IMG/VR virus record: IMGVR_UViG_3300020442_001185
Coordinates: 1 to 24,158 of that record
Strand: one strand, 5' to 3'
Length of the DNA: 24,158 bases
Origin: a virus
Below, one piece after another: positions 11,486 through 13,068 of the stretch. The translations under genes and the position numbers were made by a program. The first letter of the stretch is position 1. The number at the start of each line of letters is the position of its first letter. Below the pieces are notes generated by a model, which worked only from the letters and a program-made list of their open reading frames with translations, was not told where the DNA came from and searched no databases.

Positions 11486-11881
11486 ATGGAAGTTTTCAGT
11501 TCACCTGAAGATTATCTTTTTAATCTTCATACTTGCTCACCAGGAGAAGCTCGTAGAATATGGAAAGACTCAATTAAACAATCCTTCGATTACAAATGTG
11601 CCTATTGTGGTTCTAGAGAACACATGACGTTAGATCATGTAATTCCTCGTTGTGCTGGAGGTACAGACGAGACTCACAATCTAGTTAGTGCATGTTCCCA
11701 CTGTAATCAAAGTAAATCACATGAAAACTGGCGTTCATGGTACTCTCGTCAGAGTTTCTATGATCCTTACAAGGAAAGTCAAATTTTGGAATGGCAAAAA
11801 CAGAATATCAATACCGAAGAGCGGGCAGGACGAGTCTTGACCCGCAATAATTTTGTCCATAAAAAATTAAAAAATAATTAA
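11486..11881 (+). CDS. HNH endonuclease
   Basis: A 131-residue protein with a compact HNH domain: zinc-site pair CAYC (38/41), TLDHVIPR with the catalytic Asp50-His51, Asn65 in HNL, and the second pair CSHC (70/73) followed by NQSKS. The rest is basic. It could be a homing-type mobile endonuclease or a nicking enzyme used by the phage. There is no intron or intein around it, so it is free-standing. It has its own ATAAATA motif and terminator and sits inside the repeat-bounded module (9881-14170), which makes a role in movement of that module worth testing. Confidence 0.92.
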   Translation: MEVFSSPEDYLFNLHTCSPGEARRIWKDSIKQSFDYKCAYCGSREHMTLDHVIPRCAGGTDETHNLVSACSHCNQSKSHENWRSWYSRQSFYDPYKESQILEWQKQNINTEERAGRVLTRNNFVHKKLKNN

Positions 11882-11906: not shown

Positions 11907-11930
11907 GTATCTAAATATACTTTTTTCCTT

Positions 11931-11939
11931 GATAAATAG
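11931..11939 (+). promoter_or_regulatory. ATAAATA late-promoter-like motif (GATAAATAG)
   Basis: An NATAAATAN match in the gap after the terminator, 36-44 bases before the ATG at 11975. It is cleanly placed between a terminator and a gene, so one of the better late-promoter candidates in the window. Confidence 0.6.
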
Positions 11940-11940
11940 T

Positions 11941-11964
11941 TAATGTCATGTTAGTATGACATTA
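11941..11964 (+). promoter_or_regulatory. Leader hairpin after the ATAAATA motif
   Basis: TAATGTCAT (11941-11949) and ATGACATTA (11956-11964) form a perfect 9-bp stem with a GTTAGT loop. It lies at the expected 5' end of a transcript from the adjacent motif, so it may protect the mRNA end or bind a protein. It has no T-run. Confidence 0.5.
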
Positions 11965-11974
11965 CGTTCATCCA

Positions 11975-12172
11975 ATGTTAAGTTTTTTAGTTGCATTAAC
12001 CTTGGCATCTCATGATTCGTCGCCCTATGGGTGGCACATGAAGTGCGAAGACTTTTTACAAAGATCAGTTGAGATTCAAATGGATCCCAACTACGATCAA
12101 CGGACTAAGTATAACTTGATTGCTTATCTTAGATCGAAAGTAAAAGGTGAATGTACTGGCACTTATACATAG
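11975..12172 (+). CDS. Small Cys-containing hypothetical protein (pair member 1)
   Basis: A 65-residue protein. The hydrophobic N-terminus (LSFLVALTLASHD) may be a signal peptide or anchor. The remainder has two cysteines about 35 residues apart (KCED and GECTG) framing a predicted helix. The spacing and pattern match the next gene by eye (C-x-D ... L ... EC), so the two look like diverged paralogues. Family name unknown. It has its own promoter-like motif and hairpin leader. Confidence 0.78.
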   Translation: MLSFLVALTLASHDSSPYGWHMKCEDFLQRSVEIQMDPNYDQRTKYNLIAYLRSKVKGECTGTYT

Positions 12173-12195
12173 GACGCAAGTAAGTCGCGGAACGG
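12172..12195 (+). repeat. 24-nt leader repeat, copy 1 (GGACGCAA-N9-GGAACGG)
   Basis: GGACGCAA, nine variable bases, then GGAACGG. The block starts on the last base of the upstream stop codon and lies 12 bases before the ATG at 12208. A second copy with the same spacing is at 12360-12383. The GGAACGGAG end may help ribosome binding. Confidence 0.6.
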
Positions 12196-12207
12196 AGCGT
12201 TCATCCC

Positions 12208-12375
12208 ATGTTTGAGTTACTACTATCGACCACAATGTCATGTGTTGATGCTAATACTATAATGCTACGCATTAAAAAGCATGAGCATCTAAATGAAGAG
12301 TGGAAGGTAGAACTGGTCGAGACCATCAAGGACTATGTGCCAGAATGTAGTCATTACTGGGACGCAAACGACTAA
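12208..12375 (+). CDS. Small Cys-containing hypothetical protein (pair member 2)
   Basis: A 55-residue protein beginning MFELLLSTTMSCVDA, with cysteines at 12 and 47 framing a charged helical middle. It resembles the C-terminal part of the preceding 65-residue protein. I recall near-identical small proteins in other cyanophages, without a function. The 24-nt repeat lies before it and the second copy overlaps its 3' end, so the repeat tracks the gene boundaries. Confidence 0.8.
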   Translation: MFELLLSTTMSCVDANTIMLRIKKHEHLNEEWKVELVETIKDYVPECSHYWDAND

Positions 12376-12383
12376 AGGAACGG
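12360..12383 (+). repeat. 24-nt leader repeat, copy 2 (GGACGCAA-N9-GGAACGG)
   Basis: The same two conserved blocks with the same nine-base gap as copy 1. Here the first block lies inside the end of the upstream gene and the second lies beyond its stop. It is 32 bases before the ATG at 12416, which has its own GGAG site. Confidence 0.6.
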
Positions 12384-12415
12384 GCCTAAAAATCCAACTA
12401 CTTTAGGAGTAAATC

Positions 12416-12586
12416 ATGTTGAATACACTTACACTCATCAAAAAGCAAATCCAGAAGGCCAATGCTTTGCACGATGCACAGATTTCTCATACTGCATATC
12501 GCGGTGTTGAGTATAATGTAGATTGTGCAGATGTCCAAGAAACACACGGTACATTCTGCTATCGTGGTCATACTTACGCTAAGTGA
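12416..12586 (+). CDS. DUF4278-like small protein with two YRG motifs
   Basis: A 56-residue protein with a basic N-terminal helix and then two copies of a Y-R-G-x-x-Y motif (YRGVEY near residue 28 and YRGHTY near 49) separated by about 20 residues. That layout matches DUF4278, a family of short cyanobacterial proteins of unknown function. The TTTAGGAGT ribosome-binding site lies 6-8 bases before ATG 12416. It is the largest of three YRG proteins in a row. Confidence 0.8.
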   Translation: MLNTLTLIKKQIQKANALHDAQISHTAYRGVEYNVDCADVQETHGTFCYRGHTYAK

Positions 12587-12594
12587 GGATAACC

Positions 12595-12678
12595 ATGGAA
12601 AAGAAAGTACTTACATATCGTGGCGTTACTTATACCAAGAGACTTGAGTATAAGCCAAACTACAGGGTAGGAAACTAA
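12595..12678 (+). CDS. 27-residue YRG micro-protein
   Basis: Begins MEKKVLTYRGVTYTK, carrying one copy of the DUF4278-like motif, and ends YRVGN. A GAGGA site precedes it, and its TAA shares an A with the next ATG at 12678. Its sequence agreement with the YRG motifs of its neighbours is the main evidence that so short an ORF is real. Confidence 0.7.
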   Translation: MEKKVLTYRGVTYTKRLEYKPNYRVGN

Positions 12679-12776
12679 TGGAAGCACTACAGGTTACTGG
12701 GATTGTATCCCTCTCGTCTGTGATTTTGCTACTCCTCATTTGGGGAGAAATTAAACTACTTCACAAATTTAGTTGA
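12678..12776 (+). CDS. 32-residue single-helix membrane peptide
   Basis: The start overlaps the previous stop codon (TAATG). Residues 6-22 are a hydrophobic helix (VTGIVSLSSVILLLLIW), followed by a short basic tail. It lies between two YRG micro-proteins and may anchor or partner them; that is inference from position. Confidence 0.6.
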   Translation: MEALQVTGIVSLSSVILLLLIWGEIKLLHKFS

Positions 12777-12787
12777 GGTAGATTAAT

Positions 12788-12946
12788 ATGCTGAAGATCA
12801 GACTTTGTTATGATCTTCCAGCGTATGACCCAGAAAAACACGATCCCGATAGAGCGTTCGCGTTCTTGACTTATCGCGGGGTCAATTATGCCAAGTGGGT
12901 TAACTTAAAGCCATTTGGTAAAAAAAACTGGAAAATAACGAATTAG
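12788..12946 (+). CDS. 52-residue YRG protein (DUF4278-like)
   Basis: A basic/acidic N-terminus, then FLTYRGVNYAKW near residues 26-37, matching the YRG motif of the two upstream proteins, and a Lys-rich tail. A weak GAGG site lies upstream. Its TAG forms part of the terminator stem at 12945-12973, so this gene ends the cluster. Confidence 0.7.
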   Translation: MLKIRLCYDLPAYDPEKHDPDRAFAFLTYRGVNYAKWVNLKPFGKKNWKITN

Positions 12947-12973
12947 GATCCCTAGTTAGGGGTCCTTTTTTTT
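12945..12973 (+). terminator. Rho-independent terminator ending the YRG cluster
   Basis: AGGATCCCTA pairs with TAGGGGTCCT (one T-G pair), followed by eight T. The 3' arm matches that of the psbA terminator. The following gap of about 175 bases (12974-13151) contains only a weak -10-like site and no convincing gene. Confidence 0.92.
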
Positions 12974-13068
12974 GTATAGGATGTAACAATAAATGTAGTA
13001 TAGTAACGACCTTTAAGATCGCTAACTTTTGGTAAAGTACCTACTAAAAATTAGGGTTTCCTGACATA

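Follow-up and report, generated by a model that had tools for sequence, protein, structure and literature searches.

The window analyzed here is the whole of a viral record of 24,158 bases. Its genes, named from ORF translations, presumably include psbA, psbD, talC, gnd and zwf along with others of T4-like cyanophages; family scans covered the HNH gene and the small ORFs only. At the Rfam gathering threshold, the only RNA family found in the window is PhotoRC-II (RF01717, 55.3 bits), a known cyanophage element located at 1913-2022, upstream of psbA. A 131-aa HNH endonuclease ORF (11486-11881) lies immediately 5' of the promoter-like site of the unit considered below. This upstream neighbor varies in relatives, being nrdB in syn9 and Syn19 and a carbamoyltransferase gene in S-SSM7. 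The features of the unit are as follows:

11929..11957, + strand: sigma-70-type promoter-like site TTGATA-17-TAGTAT, 7 nt before E1 (consensus match only)
11965..11973, + strand: 5' half of RNA element E1, with pseudoknot strand CGTTC(A) and P1 5' strand TCC
11975..12172, + strand: nested gene 1, 65 aa, phrog_6471, in the E1 P1 loop; hydrophobic N-terminus, two cysteines
12172..12195, + strand: 3' half of E1, with P1 3' strand GGA, CGCA, linker and GGAACGG
12198..12208, + strand: 5' half of RNA element E2, with CGTTCA and P1 5' strand TCCCA
12208..12375, + strand: nested gene 2, 55 aa, phrog_504, in the E2 P1 loop; its end and stop codon lie in the RNA core
12358..12383, + strand: 3' half of E2, with P1 3' strand TGGGA, CGCA, linker and GGAACGG
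12372..12377, + strand: anti-Shine-Dalgarno hexamer CTAAAG; covaries with the ribosome site, helix present in the unconstrained fold
12401..12409, + strand: YRG1 ribosome site CTTTAGGAG
12416..12586, + strand: YRG1, 56 aa, phrog_545, DUF4278-like by profile matches, with a helix and two YRG motifs
12595..12678, + strand: 27-aa single-YRG ORF, from the ORF list
12678..12776, + strand: 32-aa hydrophobic ORF (membrane peptide), from the ORF list
12788..12946, + strand: YRG3, 52 aa, phrog_6192; aligns to host YRG peptides, first motif degenerate
12945..12974, + strand: intrinsic-terminator-like stem (12945-12966) and T-run

The 3' part of this unit had been described in a first-pass annotation as a cluster of small YRG-motif proteins. 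The four YRG-x-x-Y motifs it reported are present on the + strand, at 12497, 12560, 12616 and 12872, and the window holds no further instance in any of the six frames. This number is far above chance, since residue shuffling of the three ORFs gave a mean of 0.0037 motifs and a maximum of one in 20,000 trials. The ORFs of 56, 27, 32 and 52 residues were likewise found where the annotation had placed them, the second reaching 31 residues if a GTG start is used, and the shared terminator it proposed corresponds to a single terminator-like site 3' of the YRG ORFs. What had been overlooked is the tandem glutamine-riboswitch-like element, with its nested genes, upstream of YRG1.

YRG1 is preceded by two tandem RNA elements, E1 and then E2, in a region of nearly identical sequence common to the phage loci. 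E1 follows the pattern CGTTCAYC-P1-GACGCAAGTAAGTCGCGGAACGG; E2 stands directly after it with the pattern CGTTCAYC-P1-GACGCAAACGACTGAAGGAACGG and is followed by the YRG1 ribosome site. A total of 416 phage records contain the 39-nt junction, each at a single position, and all of them are named Synechococcus, Prochlorococcus, cyanophage or marine virus. YRG1 follows the E2 module in 83 of 83 cases. The window's promoter-like site has three mismatches to the sigma-70-type consensus. Across 105 distinct regions upstream of E1, sites with at most two mismatches were found in 77, compared with 19 of 525 shuffled regions, and sites with at most four mismatches end 7-9 nt before E1 in 77.

Two helices stand out in the alignments. 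P1, which lies between CGUUCA and CGCA, is paired in 100% of cells, with two-sided changes in four of its five pairs and a covariation score, in its hairpin form, of 0.314 against 0.064 for shuffled alignments. The pseudoknot strands are invariant and therefore provide no covariation evidence. The second helix lies between a hexamer in E2 (CTGAAG or CTAAAG) and the YRG1 ribosome site: six pairs can form in 80 of 83 loci and five in the other three, and where E2 carries CTAAAG it is paired with CTTTAG (18/18). This anti-Shine-Dalgarno helix forms in unconstrained folding of both the window and locus L046.

The core of each element is related to known glutamine riboswitches. Both E1 and E2 retain all ligand-site strands of the type-2 glutamine riboswitch (CGUUCA, CGCA and GGAACGG). 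In the crystal structure of the Gln-II aptamer, as described in PMC6698751, the ligand lies among C1-G2-U3-U4-C5, C17-G18-C19 and G35-G41; by alignment, strands C1-C5, C17-C19 and G35-G41 are intact in both phage elements. At the Rfam gathering threshold, no glutamine riboswitch was found in the window or in 20 phage loci, and the blank scan of the window is explained by the genes nested in the aptamer. At a lax threshold, both Glutamine-II (RF01704) and glnA (RF01739) match E1 in eight of nine phage loci, all below gathering (20-27.8 and 22.2-26.7 bits, respectively); in the ninth, L041, the loop holds a gene. Over the phage elements, RF01704 scores range from 20 to 29.2 bits against a gathering threshold of 33. 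Locus L046, an ORF-free tandem, scores 41.5 bits with RF01739 (gathering 35), compared with 22-30 bits in the other matched phage loci. This is a single match covering E1 and E2, so the pair may form one composite aptamer instead of two. A "glnA riboswitch" annotation of 44.0 bits has been published for S-CREM1 (PMC9964418), and in the record of that phage the same tandem is found, likewise free of ORFs and with a YRG peptide after it.

The kinship was also recovered in the reverse direction, using a covariance model (R1) built from 18 phage elements only. Over 61 whole host genomes, R1 gave 14 matches at E≤0.05, every one of them an RF01704 site (14/14), although these are just 14 of many RF01704 places and most were left undetected. 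Over 57 loci, it recovered the host Gln-II loci L255-L284 in 29 of 30 cases, correctly placed and with 14.5-21.8 bits, and also L254, which coincides with L280; neither L279 nor the glnA element of L247 was matched. In psbA control loci, R1 matched 8 of 19, all at 12.7-12.9 bits. The R1 scores of 24-31 bits in the window and other gene-bearing loci come from the 3' half, since the gene puts the 5' half some 200 nt further upstream, and these matches were not counted as full.

The phage element shares with Glutamine-II the CGUUCA/CGCA/GGAACGG core, the P1 hairpin and a position directly 5' of a gene for a YRG (DUF4278-like) peptide. Unlike RF01704, it is a tandem pair with a short linker, holds genes in its P1 loops and scores below gathering. 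It lacks the 3' P2 hairpin of Gln-II, the linker being about 10 nt, and the L020 alignment shows the hairpin as deleted; we therefore class the element as a riboswitch-like variant rather than a family member. With Glutamine-I (glnA, RF01739) it shares CGUUCAUC...GACGnAAGUA and GAAGGAACG, but it has CGCA instead of CGGA in most phages, a reduced or missing P3 hairpin, and nested genes.

The stretch from CGTTCA to CGCA is bimodal in length. The 105 distinct E1-E2 segments were drawn from the window and L002-L166 in two overlapping scans; three have hairpins in both elements (L046, L049, L103), 38 have a gene in E2 only, 64 have genes in both, and none has a gene in E1 only. The E1 P1 loop, which holds a 65-aa gene in the window, is a short hairpin in other phages. 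Genes nested in E2 start 2-3 nt past CGTTCAYC, and in the window the final base of the P1 5' strand TCCCA is the A of the nested ATG. At the other end, the final codons and stop of the E2 gene are the RNA core itself (GAC GCA AAC GAC TGA/TAA). In all 102 distinct E2 ORFs, codon -2 is GAC and codon -4 is GCA, while codon -7, outside the core, is variable at its synonymous site (TAC 30, TAT 29); the synonymous sites of these genes are frozen in the RNA core only.

Judging from the aligned sequences, the closing helix still covaries across the nested gene. In gene-bearing E1, pair 3 is C-G in 38, U-A in 23, U-G in three and A-U in one (n=65), so that it is canonical in 65 of 65, compared with 56 in the best of 2,000 shuffles. 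In gene-bearing E2, pair 1 is U-A in 96 and C-G in six (canonical 102/102; highest shuffle 99). The number of independent events is smaller than these counts suggest because the sequences are related, and the E1 stems that span genes are sometimes short (3 pairs in 29/65).

The two nested families look homologous: phrog_6471 and phrog_504 align with an hhalign probability of 92.4 (E 5e-7), and both combine two cysteines with a hydrophobic N-terminus. Nested ORFs of the same build but different sequence occur in other loci, and together they may represent one family of small exported proteins. Genes residing in the loops of structured RNAs are known elsewhere, for example the endonuclease genes of group I introns. 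As in those introns, the reading frame here lies in a loop at the periphery of a conserved RNA fold; unlike in them, the RNA is a riboswitch-like aptamer, the products are small two-cysteine proteins, and the start and stop codons overlap the core.

We consider it probable that the locus is one transcription unit organized around a viral glutamine-riboswitch variant, which would switch on a DUF4278-like protein mimicking host peptides. This reading draws on the RNA homology, stems, anti-Shine-Dalgarno pairing, gene nesting and linkage to YRG proteins that the sequences show. The mechanism that we infer includes glutamine binding, the direction of switching, coupling and a protein target. The RNA would start from the promoter at E1, the first of two tandem aptamer-like domains, each of which keeps the pseudoknot strands of the glutamine site (CGUUC/GAACG, CGCA) and the closing P1 stem. 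At low glutamine, the E2 hexamer CUAAAG (CUGAAG in others) would pair with the YRG1 Shine-Dalgarno sequence and keep YRG1 off. Glutamine would stabilize the E2 pseudoknot and take up the anti-Shine-Dalgarno bases, leaving the ribosome site free for YRG1 to be made. The gene nested in E2 would be regulated inversely to YRG1, because its start codon sits on P1. The predicted direction is that of the host gifB riboswitch, a reported ON switch; the host glutamine riboswitch is described in PMC6316151 as turning expression on.

The nested stop codon falls inside the anti-Shine-Dalgarno hexamer in 102 of 102 distinct E2 genes, so terminating ribosomes could also open the YRG1 site. This arrangement lends some weight to an account that we regard as unlikely, namely that a glutamine riboswitch was the ancestor of the element but glutamine sensing has since been lost. 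The element would then act only as a translational-coupling device, in which translation of the nested gene opens the anti-Shine-Dalgarno and turns YRG1 on, or it would respond to another ligand. Loss of the P2 hairpin and the sub-gathering RF01704 scores fit that account as well. Against it, every ligand-site strand is intact, including in L046, L049 and L103, where coupling cannot explain the conservation because these forms have no nested genes.

The conserved flanks of E2 hold, in place of phrog_504, dissimilar ORFs of the same build, with a hydrophobic N-terminus and two cysteines (L016, L048/L055, L054/L059), and loops are either empty or filled, as would be expected if the flanks were a gene-shuffling cassette in which near-identical sequence allows small genes to be swapped by recombination, with any RNA fold incidental. 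We judge this improbable as a full explanation, given that P1 pairing is kept by two-sided base changes, that the anti-Shine-Dalgarno tracks the Shine-Dalgarno variant by variant, and that the phage core is that of the host riboswitch. Recombinational exchange and RNA control could both be true at once.

The protein that the glutamine-switch variant would control belongs to phrog_545 (E 7e-33) and has relatives in 379 of 50,697 phage records, cyanophage in every case. YRG1 consists of a conserved N-terminal helix (NTLxLIKKQIxKAxALHDAQI) followed by the YRG part, and it has the two-motif layout of DUF4278 (PF14105). The DUF4278-like layout proposed earlier is borne out by its aligned relatives, 47 of 47 of which match DUF4278 at E≤0.01. 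The HMM comparison gave a split outcome for YRG1 itself, which matches at E 1.5e-4 but scores 22.5 bits (21.7 by genome search), under the curated cut-off of 25.3; it is therefore labeled DUF4278-like. An AlphaFold2 model predicts a helix at residues 3-28 with a pLDDT of 65.6, too uncertain for a fold search, and a search for relatives of solved structure found none (best E 2). In S-CREM1, the YRG peptide (L329 760-906) has the helix and the YRG motif in reverse order relative to YRG1. Its helix aligns with YRG1 columns 3-25 (hhalign E 9.9e-6; ungapped score 49 compared with at most 40 in 5,000 shuffles), and its residues 23-45 match phrog_545 at E 2.6e-7. The swapped order is an argument for the helix being a genuine unit. 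In five further loci (L121, L122, L150, L154 and L166), a different two-motif protein, of phrog_5049 type, replaces YRG1 right after E2.

By its profile matches, YRG3 is a conserved family separate from YRG1. It belongs to phrog_6192 (E 1e-29), and a Pfam scan of it gave no match. A search of phage records matched 72, 55 of them cyanophage-named and the rest weak matches in unrelated phages. It adjoins gp23 in P-HM2 and, in S-SSM7, lies about 70 kb away from that phage's glutamine-riboswitch-like element; no glutamine element stands next to the lone YRG3 of either phage. In S-SSM7, a manA RNA (RF01745, 123.6 bits; L006 3394-3594) is located about 750 bases 3' of the YRG3 gene. No credible relative of the 27-aa or the 32-aa ORF turned up in the 50,697 phage records; both recur in L007, a single near-identical contig with 5 differences over 531 bases. 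Another single-YRG family of 55-58 aa (CYxLxYRGVxYWSCYRIHL) occurs shortly 3' of YRG1 in L008, L010, L012, L014, L015, L042, L044 and L050; the one member scanned had no PHROG match.

Marine picocyanobacteria possess comparable peptides under riboswitch control. PMC6316151 links type-2 glutamine riboswitches in these organisms to DUF4278 genes and describes DUF4278 as spanning the N-terminal part of the glutamine synthetase (GS) inactivating factor IF17. RF01704 was found in 43 of 61 genomes of the Synechococcus WH7803 family, and a YRG or YRR peptide ORF follows the core by 4-32 nt in all 30 host loci listed. The C-terminal half of YRG1 aligns with a profile of ten 33-aa host peptides at an hhalign probability of 87.5 (E 3.5e-6). 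The DUF4278 picocyanobacterial peptides and the N-terminus of IF17 (GifB) resemble YRG1 in having two YRG-x-x-Y motifs about 18-21 residues apart, and the marine peptides also in being small and having a glutamine-riboswitch leader. YRG1 differs from them in its additional conserved N-terminal helix, its sub-cut-off Pfam score and its lack of the IF17 inhibitor domain.

The earlier interpretation of the YRG cluster thus holds for the DUF4278-like layout, for conservation in related phages and for likeness to a host protein. It fails in its proposal that one binding module was duplicated and reduced locally into a series of single-motif proteins, which is very improbable despite the adjacency of several YRG ORFs and a weak match of the 27-aa ORF to phrog_6192 (E 0.004), given that YRG3 is nearer to the host peptides (E 1.9e-6) than to YRG1 (E 1.3e-3) and is carried at different genomic places by P-HM2 and S-SSM7.

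Under the favored reading, YRG1 would act as a DUF4278-like mimic of the host's riboswitch-controlled peptides. It is possible, and we suggest it tentatively, that its helix and YRG part bind a host nitrogen-assimilation protein. Association makes a nitrogen-related protein the best candidate, and the case for GS as the target is one of association only. The YRG1 helix was considered as an IF7/IF17 inhibitor domain and rejected (hhalign E 0.18; column shuffles of the helix reach E 0.009). That domain was found in 38 of 50 Synechocystis-family genomes and in none of the 61 host-family genomes. As it is missing from YRG1 and was not found in these 61 genomes, the evidence does not point to GS inhibition by the IF mechanism.

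Glutamine and glnA riboswitches have been listed in T4-like cyanophages from Rfam scans (PMC9964418, PMC9602691); the accessible portions of these two papers make no mention of DUF4278, the tandem structure or nested genes. Within the main texts of the open-licence literature, we found no report of nested genes or a DUF4278 link in the phage element. For an ORF inserted in a riboswitch loop, the accessible parts of that literature gave a match to cell-free riboswitch screening only. A literature search for infection transcriptomes found none. The role of the host's riboswitch-controlled DUF4278 peptides is said in PMC6316151 to require extensive analysis.

As the pair is retained in hundreds of phage records, viral selection has kept peptide and switch together. 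The fullest version of the proposal is that T4-like cyanophages have a working glutamine sensor with genes inside its ligand-binding RNA, and that glutamine would close the aptamer, silence the nested two-cysteine proteins and switch on a DUF4278-like mimic acting on host nitrogen assimilation; taken jointly, these claims are possible but less likely than not. Cultured phages such as Syn9 and Syn19 make the pair of switch and peptide testable. A gene nested in an aptamer would be an unusual route to mutual exclusion of gene expression and ligand sensing. If the proposal is true, infection would read the nitrogen state of the cell through a captured and rebuilt host riboswitch.
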